Assembly: GCA_018303725.1 (NCBI GenBank)
Contig: JAGVXP010000053.1
Span: 1-35,779 of the forward strand
DNA from: Candidatus Woesearchaeota archaeon
GTDB taxonomy: Archaea > Nanobdellota > Nanobdellia > Woesearchaeales > JAGVXP01
DNA length: 35,779 nucleotides
Direction: 5' to 3'
A model generated the notes under the pieces. The model did not search any database. It worked only from the letters and a program-made list of their open reading frames with translations, and had not been told where the DNA came from. Made by a program: the position numbers and the translations under genes. This document shows, one piece after another, positions 2,801 to 33,980 of this stretch. The stretch's first letter is position 1. Every line of letters begins with the position of its first letter.

Positions 2801-2947
2801 TGTCAAAAACCACCAGTCAGAGAATGGTGGAATGTATCTGTGAATTACAGCATCAGGTGGTTTTTGAGCATGCTCAGAAATTTTTCATCATCTGGATTGT
2901 GATTGGCTTTCAGCCACCACTCATAGAGTGGTGGAAAATTTCTGACA
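2801..2947. mobile_element. Palindromic element copy 1 (TGTCA...TGAGCATGCTCA...TGACA), 147 bp, MITE/REPIN-like
   Basis: TGTCAAAAACCACC...GGTGGTTTTTGAGCATGCTCAGAAATTTT...AAAATTTCTGACA; internal CCACCACTC-ATA-GAGTGGTGG hairpin. Confidence 0.65.
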
Positions 2948-11269: not shown

Positions 11270-14200
11270 ATGGATGGATTAATAAAATTAAAAAGTGTAA
11301 TTTTGAGTTTGATAATCATATTTAGCTGTTTTAGCACGTCTGTGTTTGCTAATGGAGAAGCTGCCCCTTCTGGAACTGCTGCAACTGATGTTAAATATGA
11401 AGATTGGAAAGAGCAGGCAAAAAAAGATGCAAATGGCCTATCAGCAGCAGACATAACAGCACATGTTAATGAAGAGGATTTTAAGGTCAGCTATATCAAC
11501 AAAATACAAGATCCAACAAAAGTGCAAGCAGTATTAGAAGCAATGGACTCAAAAAAATTTGCTCTATACACGCAAGGAGCCGATCCAATTCAATTACAGC
11601 AGCAGCTGAATAAAGTAAGTGATTGGAGCAAAGTGCCTGATGAGAATGTAGCACAGATTAACAGCATTGAAGTTTTGGCTGGAGGTGCAGAACCAACAAT
11701 AACCAGAATGGGCAACAGAATTTCTGCTCTTAACCAGAAAACATTTGAAGATTCTATTAAAAAATTGACAAACACACAGAGTAGCCCTTATAGCTATGAT
11801 GTCAGCGGAAGCAAAAAATCATCAGTAGGAAAAGTTGGAGAAAAATGGGTTATAACTATTGAAGGTAGAACATTAGAGCCGTCAAATAAATTCGCAGAAG
11901 GCATTACAGGATGGATTGCTGTTGATGACCCAGCACATTTTAGGGCTGTAATGGACGAAGAGGACCCTAGTGTTAAAGCAGGGATAGAAGAAGCCGTGAG
12001 AATATTGCAGAACACAGAATTGGGTAAGAAAGCAACAGCCGGCCAGCCTTTAACACCTCAAGAGCAAGAAACCTTGAACTATTTAAAAGAAGAGCTGCAA
12101 AGAACAATCGATGAAGCTAACCAAAATATTAATTTAAATGTTCCAGTATATGCGGATTCTATCAAAGCGCTAAACGATGGAAGTTTAGAATTAACAGGCA
12201 ACCAAGTTGTTGTTATAGGCCATCTTAAAAATTTCAAAGTTAAAAACAATGGCAATTTAATCGCTGATGTTGTTGAAAACAGAGAAGGCTCTTTTGAAGT
12301 GGAGGGTTTCAACATAAAAGCTGATGATGCTGAAGCTTACACGCCTACTGATTATTTTGATGGAGGCTTTATAAGAACAATTACTGATGACAAGGCTGAT
12401 ATTGAAACACTTCCTTTAGCTGGAAGGCAAACAGTTTATGTTGATTTAACCGATCCAGACAATTTGATTGGAGGAGAAACAAGCGGGAGAAAAGTAAGAT
12501 GGCATAAAGAACAGCAAAGCCCTGATTCTATATTTTTTAGAGGTGAGATACCCAAAGAGGTTAAAGATAAAACTCAAAAAGCTAAAGAAAATATCCCTAA
12601 AGCCCAATCAGAAGAGGGTGAAGTTTGGATTAAAAGAGAAAAAGATAATTTATTTATTTACTCTACTGGCGCTGTGCAATTAAGCTCTTATCATTATGAA
12701 GGTGAAAAGCCAGTTAAAGACACAAACCCAAAATTCAGGTTTGTTGGTGTTGGGGCAGATTCAAAACTGGATTCTTTAACAAATAAGCAACTCGAAAGAA
12801 CAGAATCTTATGCCTATGGAAGATTTATTTATGAAGACAGGAATACAGCTTATGACAGCTCCCAATTTAAGGGTGAAAATCCTGAAATGATAAGTCTGAT
12901 AATATCAGGAGACGGTGGAGCTGAAAAAGTAAGGATTGACGGCCCAGAAGGCAGCTTTATGAGATATACCCAAAAAGGGCAGATAAAACATTGGATTTCT
13001 GAAGAGCAAATGCTTGTTAATGCTGAAGACAAATTAGGAAACTATGTTATAGAGTTAAAAAAAGAAGATGGAAAAATAAAATATTTGCCTTCTGCCAGCT
13101 TAGTTGGAAAAGAATTAAAAGAGAATGAATTCCTAGTTATAAACAAAATAACAATGATGGAATTAGACGACCAAGAGGACTACCTTGCAATTGAGCAGAA
13201 TGGCATTATTGCTTATGAACAATCAGATGGAGAAGGAAAATTAAAAGGCACTATCATCTCAGATTCAAAAAGCGTAAGATTTGCATTAGGACAAAATTTA
13301 GTTAGTGTAACTGATGAACAAGAAAGAGTATATAATAAATTAGTTGGCGGGGATTATGGGTTATCTAACGAGGAGCTTAAAACTTTAAAAGATAGTGAAA
13401 AGCTAAGAGGCCATATATTGGAGACTAGCGGGATAGTTGTAGATAGATTAACTGACGCAGCATACATTAATAAAATCAAAGAAAGCGATGAAGGAATTAA
13501 AAAAAGCGCTGAAATTGATGAACAAGCAAAAATAATCCAGCAACAGCTAATAGATAATGGTATTATTAATACTGATGGCTCTTTAAAAGATGGTTTAACT
13601 GAAACAATGCAAAACCAGCTCAATGAGCTAAAAGTTAAAAGGTATGAAGCGCAAAAGCAAAGAGTTGATGCTACAATAAGCCGTCTTCAAGCAGGTGGAA
13701 TTGATACAACAGATTTAGAGTTCAACTCAAAACTAATTAGTATGAACATAGATTATACTGAAGGGAGGGTTGGAGGGATTATTAGAGATGGATTAGATCT
13801 TTTAGCTGAAGCTAAAGGTGATAAAGAAAAAGAAAAAGAAGTAAGATATCTTCTTGGTCTAAGTTATCTAGAAGCTGCAAGAAGAGCGCCAAATTTGTAT
13901 CCAAATGGCGCACAGCTTGCAAGAATCAATTTTGAGAAAGTTGCTGACCTTGACCCTGATTCTTCTGAAGGGCAAACTGCCAAAGAAATTATGAGAGAGA
14001 TAGATATTTCTACTTTATCAATGATAGGAAAAGCACTTGGTGAAGAGCAAGGTGCAGCCATAGAAAGGATTGAGAACAAGCTTGGCTTAAAAAGAAAATT
14101 AGGCGGTGTTTTTACAAGGGGTGTTAGTGAATCTTTGTTAGGTCTTTTTGGAGGCGGAGCAATGTATGAAACAGCTATTTATCAAGAAGAAGGTTTAAGT

Positions 14201-17137
14201 GAGCAAGCTAAAGGAGTTATATTAATAAAAGGATTAATGAAACAAAAAAACCCAGCTACTGATGAATATTACACATTAAATGAAATAAGGCAACTTAAAA
14301 AAAGACAAATGGCAGAACTATTTAAATTAGAGATAGATAGTACAAACAAAGAGGAAAAAGATAGGGCTGTAAAAGCTGCTGTAGAGATGACATCAGCAAT
14401 AGGCACAGCATTCAATAATCCAGATATGGAAGTTTTAGCAAAAGGTGGAATAGGCAGTTATCAGTTTGGCAATTACTTGGGAGATGAAGAAAGGGCATGG
14501 TATGATGTTGGTTTAGATGTCACAAAACACATAAATGCTTTAAATGTTGCCTTATTTTTAGCTCCTGGTGCCACGGTTGGAAGAGGTACAGTTATGACTT
14601 ATATAGGTGTTGGTATAAAAACAATTCCAGGCGCAACAACAGCAGGTGGGGCTATAATTAAACAAATCCCGACTTTCCAAAAAATGGGAAGCGCGCTGGT
14701 AAGAGAAAGAGCCGTGCCTGGGTTATGGAAATTAACAGAAAGAGGACGTGCTATAAAAATAAATAACCTGGCATTAAAAGCTCAGGAATTATATAATACA
14801 GGAAAAACAACAGAGGCAGCAAAAGCATATGCTGAAGCTTCTAAATTATTAAAAGAAACAACTGTTCCGGGAGCAAGTCTTAATTTAGCAGCAGAAGCTT
14901 CTTCTGAATCTATAGCTGCCTTATTGAAAGAATCAAAAGCTGTACATGAAGCAGCAGTACAATCTGCACAAGCAGCAAAAGCACAATCATTCTGGCGTAA
15001 AGAAAGGTCAACATGGAATGGTGTAAAATCACTAGCACAAAAAACAGGAGAATTAGGAGGAAGCATAAGAACAAGTTTAGAAAACATAAATTTAAATGGA
15101 CTAAAAGCTCAACGTGAAGCAGCTAACATTAAATTAACCCAGTTAAGACAAGAAGCCCCTGTATTAAAAGTCGCTGAGCAAAAAGGAAAAGAGATGGGGA
15201 TAGAATTAAAAGGTAAAGCTGCTACTTACACTAATGATGCTGGAGGTGTAATTAAGGGTGATATAGAACAAGTTGTTGCTTCTGAAGGCAAATTATCAAA
15301 AATAACGTTAAAATCTGCTGAGGGAAAACTAATAGTTATTGAAGGAGAAGCTAATTTAGGTAGATTAACTGTCGGAACAACGAGTGAAGAAATAGTGCAA
15401 TTAGAAAAAACAATAGCTCAACTAGGGGCAGAAATTAAAGGAGCAGAACAAGCACAAGCTGCAAGAGCTACGATAATTGCAAAAGCAAAGGCTGCACAAG
15501 GTGTTGATAAAGCAAAATTGCCTCAAGCAGAAGCAAAAGCAGGAGCAGCAGAAGTAAAAAGAGCAGCACCAACTGCAGCTGGAGCTGAAGCAGCAGCACC
15601 TAAAAGTCTCGGAACAGTAAGGGATTACAATTTATTAACAAAACAGCAGGTAGATGATTTGGTAAAAGGGCTTTCTCCACAAGAGAAAAAATTCCTTAAA
15701 GCAATGTCAACACAAACCCCTAAATATGTTCAATCTGAACTTACATTGGAATCTCAAGGTGCTGCTATAACAAGAGATGATGTTATAGCTTATCTAAAAA
15801 TGGCTGAAAAAGATCCATCTGTATTCTCTTTAACTCAAGATAGGATGTTAACAACTATCTCTAGAGAGATTGAAACAACAATTACAGACATCGCCACAGG
15901 TAAATTAGTAAAAATAACTGAAGAAAATTGGATGAGGTATGGAAGAAGAGGCAGATATGTGGATGCACGTGATACATTAGGAGGAAAAATATCTGGTTTT
16001 GCAGATAATGTTCCTGAAGTAAAAGTTATGGGAGAAACCCTGCCAGAATTTGTCGCTCCTTTAAACGAACATTTAAGTGCATTAAAAAATACTAAGTTAA
16101 CAGGACAACAAAAATATGAACTGCTTCCTCTAGAAAGAAAACAAGCAGTAAATGATTTTGTAATGGGGGGCGGAAGTTTTGATGATGCAATTGCAGCAGA
16201 AGCTGCTAGAACACAAAATTTGATTGATTATGCTCCTAAGTTATTTGCTCAAAAAGCCGCATCTACACCAAAACCAACAACACCAGTAGCTGATTCAATC
16301 AAAACATTCAAAACAAGCGCAGAAGAGAGATTAAAAGAATTTGGATTTGGTGATAAAGCTGCAAAAGAAGCAGCAGGTAGAGCAGGAAATGATGCAGACG
16401 ATATAATAAGAGCATGGCAAAAGGACAAAGAGGCAAGCGCAAGATTCCTTAACCTAGATGGCACTTTAACTCGAGAAGGTATTATAAAATTAAAAGTTGA
16501 CATGCGCTCTAAAATTGGAGGAACCGTAGCAGGAAAAGGCACGCCAGGATTCACACAACCAGTTAGAGAAGAGATCACGGGCCTTTTTGATGATGCATTT
16601 AAACCAAAAGTTCCAAAAGCACTTCTAAAAATACAACCAGAACCAGTAATTGGGCCTGCTTATAAGGGCACAGGTATTATTTATCCGCCTTCTTTGCTCA
16701 GAGCATACAGAGAAGGTTATCTAGGCGCTCTTATGCTGCCTTACATAGATTTAGAAACAGGGGATACAACACCAATAGAGGTAACGCCAATACCTACTGA
16801 TGATATAACTGCTGATCAATTTAATATAAGAATTCCAACTGAACCAGCTGAAGAGGAACAAGAAGCTCCGGAAAGAAATGAAGATGAATTTGAAGTAAAG
16901 GTTGATGAAAAAGGGGAGGTAAAGGAAGTTGTAGATGTTAAAAAAAGAACGCTTGTAACAGAGCCTGAAAAACTAAAGGCAATACAAGTTATACTAACTC
17001 AATATTACACAACACCAGTCAGCTATTATGATTATTGCGATTCGATTGGAGGCAGCTGTGAAAAAGAGTGTGGTGAAGATGAAGAAACATTTAGCCATAC
17101 AGACTGTGCTGAAACATTCTTAGTTTGCTGTTTGTGA
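11270..17137 (+). CDS. 1955-aa secreted multidomain protein with six-cysteine C-terminal module
   Basis: Signal peptide; TPR-like segment; Ala-rich helical region; YYDYCDSIGGSCEKECGEDEETFSHTDCAETFLVCCL C-terminus; 1-bp gap to upstream gene. Confidence 0.85.
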   Translation: MDGLIKLKSVILSLIIIFSCFSTSVFANGEAAPSGTAATDVKYEDWKEQAKKDANGLSAADITAHVNEEDFKVSYINKIQDPTKVQAVLEAMDSKKFALYTQGADPIQLQQQLNKVSDWSKVPDENVAQINSIEVLAGGAEPTITRMGNRISALNQKTFEDSIKKLTNTQSSPYSYDVSGSKKSSVGKVGEKWVITIEGRTLEPSNKFAEGITGWIAVDDPAHFRAVMDEEDPSVKAGIEEAVRILQNTELGKKATAGQPLTPQEQETLNYLKEELQRTIDEANQNINLNVPVYADSIKALNDGSLELTGNQVVVIGHLKNFKVKNNGNLIADVVENREGSFEVEGFNIKADDAEAYTPTDYFDGGFIRTITDDKADIETLPLAGRQTVYVDLTDPDNLIGGETSGRKVRWHKEQQSPDSIFFRGEIPKEVKDKTQKAKENIPKAQSEEGEVWIKREKDNLFIYSTGAVQLSSYHYEGEKPVKDTNPKFRFVGVGADSKLDSLTNKQLERTESYAYGRFIYEDRNTAYDSSQFKGENPEMISLIISGDGGAEKVRIDGPEGSFMRYTQKGQIKHWISEEQMLVNAEDKLGNYVIELKKEDGKIKYLPSASLVGKELKENEFLVINKITMMELDDQEDYLAIEQNGIIAYEQSDGEGKLKGTIISDSKSVRFALGQNLVSVTDEQERVYNKLVGGDYGLSNEELKTLKDSEKLRGHILETSGIVVDRLTDAAYINKIKESDEGIKKSAEIDEQAKIIQQQLIDNGIINTDGSLKDGLTETMQNQLNELKVKRYEAQKQRVDATISRLQAGGIDTTDLEFNSKLISMNIDYTEGRVGGIIRDGLDLLAEAKGDKEKEKEVRYLLGLSYLEAARRAPNLYPNGAQLARINFEKVADLDPDSSEGQTAKEIMREIDISTLSMIGKALGEEQGAAIERIENKLGLKRKLGGVFTRGVSESLLGLFGGGAMYETAIYQEEGLSEQAKGVILIKGLMKQKNPATDEYYTLNEIRQLKKRQMAELFKLEIDSTNKEEKDRAVKAAVEMTSAIGTAFNNPDMEVLAKGGIGSYQFGNYLGDEERAWYDVGLDVTKHINALNVALFLAPGATVGRGTVMTYIGVGIKTIPGATTAGGAIIKQIPTFQKMGSALVRERAVPGLWKLTERGRAIKINNLALKAQELYNTGKTTEAAKAYAEASKLLKETTVPGASLNLAAEASSESIAALLKESKAVHEAAVQSAQAAKAQSFWRKERSTWNGVKSLAQKTGELGGSIRTSLENINLNGLKAQREAANIKLTQLRQEAPVLKVAEQKGKEMGIELKGKAATYTNDAGGVIKGDIEQVVASEGKLSKITLKSAEGKLIVIEGEANLGRLTVGTTSEEIVQLEKTIAQLGAEIKGAEQAQAARATIIAKAKAAQGVDKAKLPQAEAKAGAAEVKRAAPTAAGAEAAAPKSLGTVRDYNLLTKQQVDDLVKGLSPQEKKFLKAMSTQTPKYVQSELTLESQGAAITRDDVIAYLKMAEKDPSVFSLTQDRMLTTISREIETTITDIATGKLVKITEENWMRYGRRGRYVDARDTLGGKISGFADNVPEVKVMGETLPEFVAPLNEHLSALKNTKLTGQQKYELLPLERKQAVNDFVMGGGSFDDAIAAEAARTQNLIDYAPKLFAQKAASTPKPTTPVADSIKTFKTSAEERLKEFGFGDKAAKEAAGRAGNDADDIIRAWQKDKEASARFLNLDGTLTREGIIKLKVDMRSKIGGTVAGKGTPGFTQPVREEITGLFDDAFKPKVPKALLKIQPEPVIGPAYKGTGIIYPPSLLRAYREGYLGALMLPYIDLETGDTTPIEVTPIPTDDITADQFNIRIPTEPAEEEQEAPERNEDEFEVKVDEKGEVKEVVDVKKRTLVTEPEKLKAIQVILTQYYTTPVSYYDYCDSIGGSCEKECGEDEETFSHTDCAETFLVCCL

Positions 17138-22510: not shown

Positions 22511-25500
22511 ATGGGGGGTTATAAATTGAAAAAAAGATTATTGTTTATTGTTATTTTACTGGTTATTCTATCGGTTAGTTTAGTTTCTGCTGAAGTTGTT
22601 ATCAACGAGTTTGTGTATGATCACTCTGATTGTAATGATAACTATTGTGAATTGATTGAGCTTTATAACAATGGCTCTTATGCAATAAACCTATCAACAT
22701 ATACCCTCTGTGGCGATGATTTAATAGAGGGCTATATAAATGAAACAGACTCCTCAACTATATATAATAACGGCGCAATCCTGAATGCATCTGGTTATGC
22801 TATTGTAACAGATGGTGGCTCTGGTTCAACAGCTTATGGCAATTTTTCAGTAAATATTAACTTTTCAAATATTATATCCTTACACGTAGATGCCTCAGCT
22901 ATGTGTGGTAATGATTTGAGTAACACAGGTGAAGAAATTAACATAACAAACGGCACTTATACAGATCATGTAACCTATAGTTCAGCATGGGGAGCATCTT
23001 CTAATAGTTATTCACTAGAAAGGATTTCTCCCTATTATATAACTAATACATCAGCTAACTGGAATCAAAGTAAGACAGTAAACGGAACACCAGGATATAT
23101 AAACTCTGTTTATGATGTAACTGGACCGGTTATATCAGGCGAGAATACAACTCCTGTAACTATATATAATAATGTCAATGTTTCCATAAACGCAACAATA
23201 AACGACAGCACAAATATCAGCGCAGTTTGGGTGGAAGGGAATTGGAATGGCAGCTTTGTTAATTATACATTAAGCCTTAATGATAACGGGAAATATAACT
23301 ACACAATTAATTCAGCTAACTTGTCAAACCAGGAAACGGTTTATTGGAGATATTATGCAAATGATACAGTTAACAACTTGGCTGTTGGCGCGCTGCAGAA
23401 CTTTACAGTGCAGAACAGGGAGCCTCAATTAGCCCAGGATATGGATAATTTCACATGGCCTGAAGACACTGTCTATTCATTCAATATAAACGGCAATTTC
23501 ACAGATGCTGATGGCGATAACATGACATGGAATGCCACAGCAACGGAAAACATAACAATAGCTATAAACCAAACAACAGGCATAGTCAATTTGACCCCAA
23601 AAGGCAATTTCACAGGAGCAGAATATATTAATTTCTCAGCATATGACGGGATTAACAGGACATTAAGCAACACATTAAAATTAAATGTGACTAACGTAAA
23701 TGATGCTCCTATCTTGGCCTCAATTGGGAATTATACACTGCCTCAGGACCAGCAATTGACGATACAGTTAAGCGCAATTGATATAGACCCAACGAATGAT
23801 AGCTTAACCTACGGAACAGATGCTGCATTTGGAGCATTAAATTCTACAACAGGTGTATTCACATGGACGCCAAACAGCTCCTATCACAGGGATTACACAG
23901 TAATATTTAATGTTAGTGATGGAAATGGCGGGGAAGCAAATGAAACTATAGGCATATTTGTTTACTCAACATTAAACATAACCGATGTTGATGTAGCTAT
24001 AAACCCAGCTTACAACAATATACGGGATGGGTATATAATACAGAATGTTTATCCAGGACAAAGAGTTGCGACAACCATAACAGTTTATAATAAGAATGCT
24101 GGCTCTCCGACTGAAAATAATATAGACCATGCTAATATAACTTTGAGTGTGGACAATTTTGGTGTGAGCGAAGTCAAACAGCTTACAGACCCGTTAACAC
24201 CAGCTAGTTCAGATACAGAAACAATATCATTTAACGTGCCTACTTTAATTGGAGAAGGGCTTTACACAGTAAGCATAGAAACAGAAGGGTATGACCATTA
24301 TCCTGTTGTGTACAGATATGGAAATTTTACATATTATATCAACATTACAAGGCAGACAGACAATGTAACAATAGAAAACGCAACCTTAAATGCAACTTCT
24401 ATCCAATGCGAATCTCCTTTAAACCTTACAGTTAATGTAACAAACAAAGGAAGAACAGATTTTGATGATGTTAATGTCACACTAACGCAAAGCAGCCTGG
24501 GGATATCACTTTACGAAGTTTTGAATATGACTTCTAATACATCACAGACAGTGTATTTTGCAATAGACACAGCAAACAAGCCGGCTGGCAGTTATAGCCT
24601 CAATGTTTTAGTTAAATATTATTCAGACACATTGCAGGACAGCAAAACAGCTACACTGGCAATAATAAACTGCGAGCCTCAAAACACAAGCATAATCCCA
24701 AATATAACAATTGAAGAGGATGGCTATAATGATACGATAAACTTGAGCAATTACTTCGCTGATTATAATAATGATAATTTGATATTCAGCAAAGAGGGCG
24801 CTTCAAATATAACATTCACCTTCTTATCCAATGGTATAGTTAACATAACGCCAAAAGGTGACTTTAATGGAACAAATTATCTTAATTTCACAGCAAGTGA
24901 TACAATCAATACAACAAAAAGCAACCAGGTTAAAATAACAGTAACGCCTGTTAATGACCCTGCAGCTGTAACTGCTATACCAGACCAGACAGCAGCGCAG
25001 GACTCTGAATTTATTTATGCTGTAATTGCTTCCGATGTGGAGAATGACACATTAATTTACAATTTGACTGTAAATGCCTCAATAAAAGCAAGGATAAACA
25101 GCTCAGGCTATATCTACAACTGGACTCCAACAAACAGCGAAGTTGGGAATATTTATGTATTCAATGTTTCTGTTAATGATACCAGAAATAAAACCTATGA
25201 AGACTTCAAGCTAACTATAACAAATGTGAATGATGCTCCTGTATTCAACACGGCTGTGCCAATACGAAACCTTACATGGCCGGAAGACACAACAAACAGC
25301 TCTCTTAACATATCCGGAAGCTTCTATGATATTGATGGGGACAGCCTTGCATATGAGGCATCTGGCGTTTCTGATATAACTGCAAGCATAGATTCAAACG
25401 GCATAGTAACACTAACTCCAGCAGCAAATTTCAATGGGACAAGGAATATAACATTCAGGGCTTATGACGGAAGCTTATACTCCAATTACAGCAACACAGT

Positions 25501-28435
25501 AAAATTGAATGTAACCAATGTAAATGATGCGCCAGCAATAGGCAGCTTCAGCCCATCAACAACAGCAGTAGTTGGCGAAACATATGATTATGATGTAAAT
25601 GCAACAGATATTGATGGCGACACAATAACATATTATGACAACACAACATTATTCAATATAAACAGCGCAACAGGAATAATCTCATTCACACCTGCAATTG
25701 GCGATATAGGCTCGCATACAATCAACATAAGCGCATCAGACGGCCAGCTAAATGATTCAAAGTTATTCACATTAAATGTTTATAACACCCTAAGTTTAAC
25801 AAATGCTCAGACAAGCATAAATGATGCGGCTTACAGCTCATTAAGCGAGGGGGCAACATTATCAGGAATAAGCCAGGGAGACAGCTTAAAGGTAAAAGTG
25901 GATGTCAAGAACTGGCTAAGCACATATGATATGGATTTGGTGAGGGTAAGCGCAACAATAATAGATGGATCAACCCTGGTTGCAACAAATTATTATGATA
26001 TATCAACGCTAGGAAAAGAGTCAACAGCAACAGCAACAATTAATTTAGGGGCTATAGGCTCGTCAATAGCAAACGGAAATTATGATCTAAGAATTAATGC
26101 AACAGCGCAGTACAATCCTTCAAGCCCTACAAAAGTCAATTCAACATGGAACGCAAGTGTAAGGATACAAAGCGAAGCGCATCAGATTTTGATAACCTCT
26201 GCTGTAGTAGGCCCTGCCAGTATAGCATGTAATAGATCAATTGTAGTTAATGTCACTGTAAAGAATCTTGACGCTTTCAATGGCAATCAAAACACAACTG
26301 TTACTGTAACAAAAACAAGCCTGGGGATAAATAAAGCTGAAACAAAAGAAATAAACTATGGCGCAGCTGAAATATTCTCAATACCAATTAACGTTTCTCA
26401 AAGCGCATCAGCAAACAACTACACGCTGTCAATACATGCAGAAACAGAAGAAGGCACAACAGCGGACACTACAAAAAATTTGGAGATAAATGCATGTGAG
26501 ATAACATACAATCCTGCTGAAGCAAGCCCTATTTTAAGCGGTAAGACAAACAAAACATTTAGCTTTGCACTGCCAGCAGAGCTGTCTTTGATATCCTCGG
26601 TCTGGAAAGAGAATGGGGTAGAAAAGAGCGCTTACCAGAATTCACTGAATTACACATTTGAAGCTAAAAACACCAATGGCGATTACCATATCATAGTTGA
26701 GATCACAGATGACCAGGGAGCCTCCCATACGCATGAGTGGTATCCAATAACAACCATGTATGCTATAGCCGACCCGTACACAACAGCTCCTGATTTGTCT
26801 GCATTAAACCAGTCCCAGCTTGAGAATGTAACACTTACTTTAAATAATGAAAATGCAAAAATTGAATTTTTAGAGCCTGTAAATCTTTCGGATATTGTAA
26901 CACTAGGAGACCATCTTTATATCCAGGGCTCAATAGCTGCTGTTAATGTATCTGGCGATTATTTTGTATTCAGCAATAAGCCAGCAAAGATAACATTGAC
27001 AGGCTTAACATATAATGAGGAGCCCAAGATTTATTACACTTCAACATTCACAACAGACTCTTCACAAATAACCTCCCTATGCCCAACAACCATATGCAGC
27101 CTAGTCAGCAGAACAGAGCCTCCAACTAACGGGGATGGCGTTGTTGTGTTTAATGTAACACAATTCTCAAGTTATAGGATAGGAACAACAGCCGCGCCAA
27201 CAACTAACCCTGTAGCTGTTGCTGGTTCAGACCAAACTGTGATAGTAAACTCGGTCGTTACGCTAGACGGCTCTGGCAGCTATGATGAAGATGGAACTAT
27301 CGCCAGTTATGCCTGGGCTCAAACATCAGGCACAACTGTAACCCTAAATAATGCTAACAATGATGTTGCAACATTCACACCATCGCAAACAGGAACATAC
27401 ATATTTGGATTGACTGTAACAGATGATGATGGATTGACTAATACAGACAGCATTACTGTTGATGTCCAAACAATTGCAATAGGCAATTTAACAATCTCAG
27501 ACTTGGATGTAAAGGTGGATGGCTCGGTTGATAAAAATATAGAGGGCAAAGCAGAAGGCTATAAAATAAGCGAAGAAGCCAAACCAGGCTCAGATATTGA
27601 GCTCAATATTCAAATTGAGAATTTATTTGATGAAGATACAGATATGGAAATAAAGGATATAGAAGTTATAGTAACAATTGAGGAGATTGATGATGGCGAT
27701 GATTTGGAGGAAGATGCTGACGAATTTGATCTTGATGCTGGTGACAAAGAGAAAATTACACTAAACTTTAACATACCAGACGATGCCGAAGAGGATGTAT
27801 ATGATGTTGTAATAGAGGCGGATGGGGATGATGATAATGGAAACACCCATTCCATAACAAAAACATTAAAACTTGAAGTTAAAAGAAAGAAGCACGAAAT
27901 AAAAGTTACCAATATTGATTTAGCCCCATCTGTTGTTGATTGCAGCAAAACCGCAAGATTAGACGTTGAAATCAAAAATATAGGCAAGGAAGATGAAGAA
28001 GATGTAACATTGGAAATCAAAAGCAGCGAACTAAGCCTGAACATAGAAGAAAAAGACATCGAACTTGACTCAGATACAGATGATGATAGTGAATACACTC
28101 AAACTGCGACGGTAAACGTACCGGCTGATTTGCCATTGGGAACATACCCAATAACCATAAAAACATATTATGATGATAAAGCAAGCGATACTGAAACAAT
28201 TAACCTATTGGTTGCTGAATGTAAGATAGGTGTTGGGGAAGAAGCAGTTGAATTAACCACAACAAAAGGCTTGCCGACAGAAGGGGAAGGAGCAACAGCA
28301 GAAGAGCTTCCGACTGCAAAAATATCATTCAGGGAAAGCGATGAATACATACTGATACTAGCGCTTGCCTTCCTTATACTAACAGGAGCTGTGATATTTG
28401 TGATAGGCGCTTTAGTGATTAAGCTGAAGAAATAA
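22511..28435 (+). CDS. 1974-aa TM-anchored adhesin/S-layer-like protein: lamin-tail (LTD), cadherin/Ig repeats, PKD, acidic stalk (paralog B)
   Basis: EVVINEFVYDHSDCNDNYCELIELYNNGSYAINLSTYTLCGDD (LTD-like); NVNDAPxxx cadherin-type repeats; NPVAVAGSDQTVIVNSVVTLDGSGSYDEDGTIASYAWAQTSG (PKD); C-terminal TM; many N-x-S/T sequons. Confidence 0.88.
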   Translation: MGGYKLKKRLLFIVILLVILSVSLVSAEVVINEFVYDHSDCNDNYCELIELYNNGSYAINLSTYTLCGDDLIEGYINETDSSTIYNNGAILNASGYAIVTDGGSGSTAYGNFSVNINFSNIISLHVDASAMCGNDLSNTGEEINITNGTYTDHVTYSSAWGASSNSYSLERISPYYITNTSANWNQSKTVNGTPGYINSVYDVTGPVISGENTTPVTIYNNVNVSINATINDSTNISAVWVEGNWNGSFVNYTLSLNDNGKYNYTINSANLSNQETVYWRYYANDTVNNLAVGALQNFTVQNREPQLAQDMDNFTWPEDTVYSFNINGNFTDADGDNMTWNATATENITIAINQTTGIVNLTPKGNFTGAEYINFSAYDGINRTLSNTLKLNVTNVNDAPILASIGNYTLPQDQQLTIQLSAIDIDPTNDSLTYGTDAAFGALNSTTGVFTWTPNSSYHRDYTVIFNVSDGNGGEANETIGIFVYSTLNITDVDVAINPAYNNIRDGYIIQNVYPGQRVATTITVYNKNAGSPTENNIDHANITLSVDNFGVSEVKQLTDPLTPASSDTETISFNVPTLIGEGLYTVSIETEGYDHYPVVYRYGNFTYYINITRQTDNVTIENATLNATSIQCESPLNLTVNVTNKGRTDFDDVNVTLTQSSLGISLYEVLNMTSNTSQTVYFAIDTANKPAGSYSLNVLVKYYSDTLQDSKTATLAIINCEPQNTSIIPNITIEEDGYNDTINLSNYFADYNNDNLIFSKEGASNITFTFLSNGIVNITPKGDFNGTNYLNFTASDTINTTKSNQVKITVTPVNDPAAVTAIPDQTAAQDSEFIYAVIASDVENDTLIYNLTVNASIKARINSSGYIYNWTPTNSEVGNIYVFNVSVNDTRNKTYEDFKLTITNVNDAPVFNTAVPIRNLTWPEDTTNSSLNISGSFYDIDGDSLAYEASGVSDITASIDSNGIVTLTPAANFNGTRNITFRAYDGSLYSNYSNTVKLNVTNVNDAPAIGSFSPSTTAVVGETYDYDVNATDIDGDTITYYDNTTLFNINSATGIISFTPAIGDIGSHTINISASDGQLNDSKLFTLNVYNTLSLTNAQTSINDAAYSSLSEGATLSGISQGDSLKVKVDVKNWLSTYDMDLVRVSATIIDGSTLVATNYYDISTLGKESTATATINLGAIGSSIANGNYDLRINATAQYNPSSPTKVNSTWNASVRIQSEAHQILITSAVVGPASIACNRSIVVNVTVKNLDAFNGNQNTTVTVTKTSLGINKAETKEINYGAAEIFSIPINVSQSASANNYTLSIHAETEEGTTADTTKNLEINACEITYNPAEASPILSGKTNKTFSFALPAELSLISSVWKENGVEKSAYQNSLNYTFEAKNTNGDYHIIVEITDDQGASHTHEWYPITTMYAIADPYTTAPDLSALNQSQLENVTLTLNNENAKIEFLEPVNLSDIVTLGDHLYIQGSIAAVNVSGDYFVFSNKPAKITLTGLTYNEEPKIYYTSTFTTDSSQITSLCPTTICSLVSRTEPPTNGDGVVVFNVTQFSSYRIGTTAAPTTNPVAVAGSDQTVIVNSVVTLDGSGSYDEDGTIASYAWAQTSGTTVTLNNANNDVATFTPSQTGTYIFGLTVTDDDGLTNTDSITVDVQTIAIGNLTISDLDVKVDGSVDKNIEGKAEGYKISEEAKPGSDIELNIQIENLFDEDTDMEIKDIEVIVTIEEIDDGDDLEEDADEFDLDAGDKEKITLNFNIPDDAEEDVYDVVIEADGDDDNGNTHSITKTLKLEVKRKKHEIKVTNIDLAPSVVDCSKTARLDVEIKNIGKEDEEDVTLEIKSSELSLNIEEKDIELDSDTDDDSEYTQTATVNVPADLPLGTYPITIKTYYDDKASDTETINLLVAECKIGVGEEAVELTTTKGLPTEGEGATAEELPTAKISFRESDEYILILALAFLILTGAVIFVIGALVIKLKK

Positions 28436-29333: not shown

Positions 29334-29503
29334 TGTCAGAAATCACCTTTCGTACACCATGGGCTTTAGCCCATGGAAAGAATAGCGATTTCTGAGCATG
29401 CTCAAAAACTCCGCAACACGCTCCGCACTCATAAAAAATGCGAAGCATTTTTGTGTGCTCCAAAATCTAAAGGATTTTTGACATTAGTGCGGAGTTTTTG
29501 ACA
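29334..29503. mobile_element. Palindromic element copy 2, 170 bp, ending 25 bp upstream of taw3 start codon
   Basis: TGTCAGAAATC...GATTTCTGAGCATGCTCAAAAACTCCGCA...TGCGGAGTTTTTGACA; internal CCATGGGC-TTTA-GCCCATGG (29357-29376) and AAAAATGC-GAA-GCATTTTT (29434-29452). Confidence 0.7.
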
Positions 29504-31309: not shown

Positions 31310-31721
31310 CTAATATATACTATCATGATGATCATAATCTAGAACTCTGACAATTTTATTATCTTCATCTACCTCATAAGTTAAAACGAAAGATTTATCG
31401 ATATGAACTCTTCTTGCACCATGCATATCACCTTTTAAAGGCTTAAAATGGTACGGATTGTCAAAAACCACCCATCAGAGATGGGTGGCATGCTCTGATA
31501 TAGCATCATCGGAAAGTGGTTTTTGATGCTCAGCATTCCACGAATCAGCGGTGGTTTTTGAGCACAACAGATTTCACACCACTCATCACAGATGAGTGGA
31601 ATGCTGTTGTTTCAACAATCTGTTCAATTTTCTTAAAAATTATCTGCAATTGTTTCGGATTTTTCTTTTTAAGTTTAGAGAAAATCTTATCCATATTGGG
31701 TTTGGTAGCAAGAGAGTACAT
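31310..31721 (-). pseudogene. RelE/YafQ-type toxin interrupted by 151-bp palindromic insertion
   Basis: Removing 31460-31610 restores 86 codons plus stop: MYSLATKPNMDKIFSKLKKKNPKQLQIIFKKIEQIVE|NPYHFKPLKGDMHGARRVHIDKSFVLTYEVDEDNKIVRVLDYDHHDSIY*. Confidence 0.85.
31460..31610. mobile_element. Palindromic element copy 3 (degenerate), 151 bp, inside relE-like gene
   Basis: (T)GTCAAAAACCACC...GTGGTTTTTGATGCTCAGCATTCCA...TGGAATGCTGTTGT; internal CCACCCATC-AGA-GATGGGTGG and CCACTCATC-ACA-GATGAGTGG. Confidence 0.75.
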
Positions 31722-33860: not shown

Positions 33861-33912
33861 TGTCAGAAATCGAAGATTTCTGAGCATGCTCAAGAACCGA
33901 AGGTTCTTGACA
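33861..33912. mobile_element. Palindromic element copy 4: minimal 52-bp core
   Basis: TGTCAGAAATC-GAA-GATTTCTGAGCATGCTCAAGAACC-GAA-GGTTCTTGACA. Confidence 0.75.
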
Positions 33913-33918
33913 AGTGAC

Positions 33919-33972
33919 GAGTTTGCGAAGCAAACTCCATATTTTCATCGATGTTTTTTGCGAAGCAAAAAA
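33919..33972. repeat. Two more C-GAA-G triloop hairpins: GAGTTTGC-GAA-GCAAACTC (33919-33937) and TTTTTTGC-GAA-GCAAAAAA (33954-33972)
   Basis: Perfect 8-bp stems. Confidence 0.8.
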
Positions 33973-33980
33973 GCTCGGAT

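Follow-up and report, generated by a model that had tools for sequence, protein, structure and literature searches.

A 52-bp sequence near the right end of the window (the whole stretch of 35,779 nucleotides analysed here, from a Candidatus Woesearchaeota archaeon) consists of two hairpins around a palindrome, which raises the question of whether it belongs to a mobile family and, if so, what kind of enzyme could move it. The first-pass annotation of this DNA had described a twin-hairpin architecture, and on re-reading the letters are exactly as claimed, namely, TGTCA, GAAATC-gaa-GATTTC, TGAGCATGCTCA, AGAACC-gaa-GGTTCT, and TGACA in that order, with TGAAA directly 5′ of TGTCA. Two types of arm occur in the family, distinguished by the bases that follow TGTCA, which are GAAA or similar in type A and A[A/G]AAC in type B. 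In the A arm of this element, base pairing is possible between TGTCA and the TGA(g)CA within the core, with the G left bulged. TGAGCATGCTCA occurs exactly three times in the window (at 2865, 29393, and 33881), and the recurrence of the architecture in two longer elements, also proposed from the first reading, is borne out by the exact cores at 2865 and 29393 and by paired arms (Table 1). The degenerate copy near 31460 was confirmed by the B-arm covariance model, R2 (E = 2.8e-11 on 31459-31564), with R1 giving E = 0.014 on 31527-31609. Copies 2 and 4 have a common left arm (TGTCAGAAATC/GATTTC) and different loop contents, as had been noticed. The 170-bp element carries a CTTTAG-loop hairpin within its A arm and more hairpins nested within its B arm, and its fold as single-stranded DNA has a free energy of -39.3 kcal/mol (z = -7.1). 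The window contains no match to Rfam.

Table 1. Positions of the elements and their parts in the window.
Feature	Position	Strand	Basis
Minimal element, 52 bp	33861..33912	+	Sequence, element catalogue, flank consensus
A (GAAA-type) arm of the minimal element, TGTCA + GAAATC-gaa-GATTTC	33861..33880	+	Sequence
Central palindrome TGAGCATGCTCA, 12 bp, conserved	33881..33892	.	47 genome copies
B (ARAAC-type) arm of the minimal element, minus-strand reading TGTCA-AGAACC-ttc-GGTTCT	33893..33912	-	Sequence
Class I full-length element, 147 bp	2801..2947	-	TTTTA flank after TGACA
B arm of the 147-bp element with IS200 right-end-like hairpin	2801-2870		R2 E = 4.2e-19
Core of the 147-bp element	2865-2876		
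A arm of the 147-bp element with left-end-like hairpin	2871-2947		R1 E = 2.3e-19
Element, 170 bp, core 29393-29404	29334..29503	+	
Degenerate copy, B arm 31459-31564, A-arm remnant to ~31609	31459..31610	+	

The draft genome (1,302,739 bp, 62 contigs, 81% complete) contains 47 copies of TGAGCATGCTCA, against 0.05 expected from base composition and none for a reversed-pattern control. This approximately 1000-fold excess over expectation rules out a chance origin of the 12-mer, and the element family proposed in the first-pass annotation stands in this respect. Most of the 47 cores carry a TGTCA-X...X′-core arm on both sides, where X and X′ are complementary, and a few are truncated at contig ends or degenerate; counts beyond the searched patterns rest on fetched stretches rather than the whole genome. 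The smallest arms are triloop hairpins and the longest exceed 150 nt; many of the loops harbour further, nested hairpin elements. The TGTC(A) tag faces outward in all complete elements and the inner tail is GAGCA, whereas stem and loop lengths are widely variable. Inspection shows that pairing between TGTCA and the TGA(g)CA within the core is possible and leaves each hairpin with a single bulged base. Few halves stand alone: of 214 detected half-hairpins, 197 are parts of full elements. What is conserved across genomes is thus TGTCA, TGAGCATGCTCA, and TGACA together with the complementarity of the arms, rather than the 52 bp as such.

Among the complete elements of the source genome, 30 of 31 combine an A arm with a B arm, a figure matched by none of 200,000 random pairings; A/A pairs are frequent in other genomes too (32/98 in the pooled set). 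When the elements are oriented with the A arm last, the flank after TGACA reads T (96%), A/T, T (86%), C/T, A (65%), which corresponds to 5′-TRAWA|TGTCAGAAA in the A-side reading, whereas the flank at the B-arm side is weakly biased. The elements are therefore polar, with one GAAA arm, one ARAAC arm, and a target preference next to the A arm. Between families, the long class I arms retain common sequences (TTTTCCACCAGT...ACTGGTGGCTGAAAGCCAA in A arms and ARAACCACCCATC...GATGGGTGGAATG in B arms). We also observed composite inserts in which a TGTCA hairpin is combined with an unrelated AATTG...CAATT hairpin (L195 at approximately 1158-1210, L183, and L194, and L018 and L020 near 1865-1920), which suggests alternative partner halves.

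The GTDB contigs were scanned with a pattern that fixed TGTCA, the core, and TGACA and left complementarity free. Archaeal matches came from Woesearchaeota, Pacearchaeota, other Nanoarchaeota, and some contigs labelled "archaeon," and nearly all had paired arms. The twin-hairpin layout is thus present in DPANN archaea, chiefly Woesearchaeota. Matches outside DPANN archaea lacked hairpins, except for one Nomurabacteria (CPR) contig. When the nearest TGTCA was taken and pairing was disregarded in its choice, five complete outer base pairs were found in 106 of 118 archaeal arms (19 after partner shuffling) compared with 0 of 22 bacterial arms. The exceptional contig, labelled Candidatus Nomurabacteria, has a perfect element at 101-154 of L092, by mis-binning or transfer. 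A pattern scan of IMG/VR gave four matches, none with hairpins, and these are therefore attributed to chance. The 12-mer was carried by 72 of the 371 genomes of the phylum sample, including 64 of the 199 from the order of the source genome and 8 of the remaining 172. Copy number varies sharply within genera, as seen in G003, G038, and G064 (0, 7, and 16 copies) and in G309 and G024 (23 and 10). No description of the element family was found in the literature searched.

Mobility was seen in two relatives, G371 and G372 (JACQXV/JACRKM), in which a 54-bp element lies inside a larger host repeat that itself has two hairpins. This repeat family (ATCAT-hairpin-AGGATGCC-hairpin-GTGCAT, approximately 160-200 bp; L042, L056, and L278-L289) has the same architecture as the 54-bp element but different sequences. 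In a search of the host repeat that allowed 0 to 20 free bases at the junction, all 17 empty sites were exactly GATTTTTAGGATGCC, i.e., GATT-TTT-AGGATGCC, and at least 18 filled sites read GATT-[54 bp]-TTTAGGATGCC. Filled and empty sites thus differ by exactly 54 bp, without target duplication and with one base ambiguous. These exact junctions define the mobile unit as TGTCA...TGACA and show that its boundaries are exact and that no target duplication accompanies it. In a tree of the host repeat, filled and empty copies are intermixed, requiring at least eight changes, of which two are imposed by branches with good support. Such a pattern could come from repeated insertion, from excision, or from recombination between copies. 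A further insert, of 53 nt, splits a B arm of G309 at GGTGGTT^TTTGAGCATGCTCA, again without duplication, and one half of it is a TGCTCA-hairpin-TGACA arm. The element family is therefore mobile, and variation in presence, whose absence between related genomes the first-pass annotation had named as grounds for refutation, is found both at the exact filled and empty sites of G371/G372 and in gatA.

Of the 47 elements, 38 are located outside ORFs of 120 aa or more, although 69% of positions drawn at random land within ORFs of that size. With fetched relatives included, nine elements are located within ORFs of 150 aa or more, and the length of every one is a multiple of three, compared with 57 of 117 elements outside. 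Their hosts include GatD (108 bp), GatE (54 bp), GatA (54 bp), and a YgiQ-family radical SAM protein (147 bp). In gatA of the source genome, an in-frame element of 54 bp, flanked as TGATA|TGTCAG, adds exactly 18 residues; it is missing from all 12 aligned orthologues, of which the nearest is 72% identical. The element peptides of GatA and GatE are nearly alike (MSEIQRISEHAQKPLVFDK and MSEMQSISEHAQKPLVFDK), and alignments to the solved structures of GatD, GatA, and GatE break at the element-encoded residues. In the PpsA case of G024 (L203), the element may lie upstream of the true start. Copies borne by genes would persist if their length is a multiple of three, and housekeeping proteins would then gain peptides of at least 18 residues. 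Such in-frame protein-coding copies are beyond what the first reading foresaw. Those in GatA, GatD, and GatE represent a route by which peptides are added to conserved housekeeping proteins of reduced genomes, and peptide addition by in-frame palindromic elements has hitherto been mainly a Rickettsia phenomenon.

A search of the genome for an IS200/IS605 or RAYT-like transposase, which had been recommended along with the original description, was successful in part: a partial IS200-type Y1 remnant is present (the 3′ part of one gene, the sole trace of Y1 in the source genome), but no RAYT-type gene is linked to the elements. Over 31 Y1 loci, the B-arm model gave one match, on the 3′ side of this remnant (E = 0.012). 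At 30 loci of the remnant's relatives, the B-arm model detected additional hairpins, most of them immediately 3′ of tnpA, and some of these loci also gave upstream hairpins with the A-arm model. As judged by reading the sequences, left-end (LE) hairpins like AATCAGAAT-TCCACCGGTtctttgACCGGTGGA resemble the A arm TGTCAGAATTTTCCATCCAGTctttgACTGGTGG, and right-end (RE) hairpins like CCCAATCtctGATTGGG-AGTTGTTTACA resemble the B arm CCCATCtctGATGGGTGGTTCTTGACA, in both position and orientation. There was no match at loci of other TnpA subfamilies, and the hairpins of more distant subfamilies differ. The long arms are thus homologous to the end hairpins of a single IS200 TnpA subfamily. The core is commoner in genomes with this subfamily (9/14 versus 55/185; Fisher p = 0.014), a modest association that is uncorrected for kinship and relates to a subfamily delimited by an E-value cut-off chosen after looking; the presence of Y1 across the whole phylum showed no clear link to the elements. 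None of the 31 loci scanned had a TGTCA-hairpin half beside tnpA, so that the scan yielded no autonomous copy bounded by precisely these ends. Model searches of G000 and G309 likewise gave no autonomous copy with a gene between A and B arms, the widest separations being short nested inserts. In five high-copy genomes (G024, G040, G064, G160, and G240; 10-16 copies each, completeness 91-99%) no Y1 gene was detected, and neither arm model matched the Y1 loci of G371/G372, where minimal triloop arms without an IS200-like inner hairpin are nevertheless mobile.

We consider it probable that the family consists of non-autonomous hairpin elements of the IS200/IS605 type, similar to REPINs and PATEs (palindrome-associated transposable elements), that are moved in trans by a Y1 TnpA as single-stranded DNA. 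In this view, the A and B arms correspond to the left and right ends, respectively, of an IS200-like transposon and are joined around TGAGCATGCTCA without an intervening transposase gene. In the single-stranded state, each arm would form a hairpin with TGTCA and TGA-g-CA paired at its base, apart from a single bulged nucleotide; both hairpins would be bound in trans by a Y1 (HUH) TnpA, which would excise the element as single-stranded DNA, and insertion would occur 3′ of a short target (approximately 5′-TRAWA) next to the A arm, without target duplication. We infer the action of TnpA, the single-stranded intermediate, and the sufficiency of triloop-only arms for the same enzyme. Because of the high-copy genomes in which Y1 was not detected and the unmatched loci of G371/G372, IS200/IS605-type movement is regarded as likely, whereas mobility itself is shown. 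The five high-copy genomes lend some weight to an alternative that we regard as unlikely, in which a different enzyme (e.g., a domesticated recombinase or another HUH protein) reads TGTCA-hairpin-TGAGCA structurally and the IS200-like hairpins of the long arms are later nested captures. The mobility of minimal elements without inner hairpins would also fit such an enzyme, as would arm classes that differ in their inner hairpins but have TGTCA and the core in common. However, class I arms match IS200 left and right ends, each on the side and in the orientation expected, and the lack of target duplication, the one-sided target, and the bulged hairpins form the IS200/IS605 pattern. Furthermore, transposase genes of Haloquadratum decay beside elements that are still polymorphic (PMC3119063). 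An equally doubtful possibility is a mainly structural transposition signal, in which any perfect hairpin, from a triloop upward, between TGTCA and the 12-bp palindrome would serve, arms would be swapped or nested freely, and an enzyme other than the classical IS200 TnpA would act; the elements would then be a standing source of in-frame peptides in DPANN housekeeping proteins.

Two further explanations have far lower probability. The strong conservation of the core and ends across genera and the preference for positions outside ORFs of at least 120 aa might indicate immobile sites maintained by the host (terminators, nucleoid-binding sites, or recombination sites) and dispersed by old duplication. 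We reject this very improbable reading on the filled and empty sites and the gatA comparison; exact sites in paralogous and orthologous contexts have already largely refuted it, and nested insertions, insertions in genes, and the patchy copy number in the genus of G003, G038, and G064 also contradict it. A classical MITE of a DDE transposase with 5-bp terminal inverted repeats, the least probable of the explanations considered, would account for short complementary ends (TGTCA/TGACA) in a non-coding, multicopy element. It is contradicted by the absence of target-site duplication in clear filled/empty comparisons, and the target preference is one-sided.

IS200/IS605 elements (TnpA Y1, subclass 1.1) have subterminal hairpins and a one-sided conserved target and do not duplicate it (PMC6006769). 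The Woesearchaeota elements resemble them in that the target is conserved at the left end alone and the long arms correspond to the ends of a single Woesearchaeal TnpA subfamily, but they are gene-less, and their ends are fused and extended by complementary stems. The PATEs of Haloquadratum are archaeal, non-coding elements with near-terminal palindromes related to IS605-type ends; they show no target duplication, 52-bp terminal-only forms, frequent nesting, and transposases that are often decayed (PMC3119063). The present family shares these features, the match to IS200-type ends being that of the class I arms rather than the minimal arms. By contrast, PATEs are defined without terminal inverted repeats (PMC3119063), whereas the ends here are complementary, TGTCA/TGACA, and abut at a fixed 12-bp palindrome with arms that shrink to triloops. 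REPINs, or GTAG-tagged REP dimers, are inverted hairpin pairs that are mostly intergenic and for which Y1-mediated movement has been proposed (PMC3116915, PMC6006769). The REPIN resemblance suggested in the first-pass annotation holds for the inverted hairpin pair as one mobile unit, the tags outside, the compensatory stem changes, the dispersed family, and the location mostly between genes; REPIN membership does not, since the tag is TGTCA rather than GTAG/GTGG and no RAYT-type gene is linked. The archaeal host, the non-identical A and B arms, and a centre of fixed sequence instead of the variable spacer of REPINs are further differences. The correspondence between the long arms and the ends of an IS200 TnpA subfamily brings the family nearer to IS200/IS605-derived PATEs, with a REPIN-like layout.

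CGTC-tagged REPs, including TGTC variants, have been described in bacteria and have stems of 8-9 bp starting with AT, loops of 4-5 nt, and a CCA tail; RPE-4 and RPE-6 of Rickettsia belong to this group (PMC3733652). Likenesses are the TGTC terminal motif, the prevalence of head-to-head dimers, the common heterodimers, the lack of a linked transposase, and the copies in genes (PMC3733652), whereas the Woesearchaeota stems are 5-11 bp, the loops range from 0 to more than 150 nt, and there is no CCA tail. Rickettsia palindromic elements are also found in frame within metabolic or housekeeping genes (PMC10969869) but differ in sequence, host domain, and size, the Woesearchaeota minimal unit adding 18 residues. 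The family is best called intermediate between the REPIN, CGTC-REP, PATE, and Rickettsia palindromic kinds, and it brings DPANN archaea within the range of REPIN/PATE-style mobility. Exact boundaries, a target, empty sites, and a candidate parent transposon are available for it, so that the mechanism of REP-like elements can now be tested in archaea.

Other repeats were noticed in the window. Around the minimal element there are direct repeats of gene 3′ ends, 87-89% identical (33768-33837/33978-34047 and 34040-34123/34814-34897), accompanied by a terminator-looking hairpin with a T-run. Numerous short hairpins tipped with GCGAAGC and without TGTCA tags, e.g., TTTTTTGCGAAGCAAAAAA, occur at 33925-33975, 29440-29475, and elsewhere. 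Two very long ORFs with internal repeats (11270-17137 and 22511-28435; 1955 and 1974 aa) possibly encode surface proteins.
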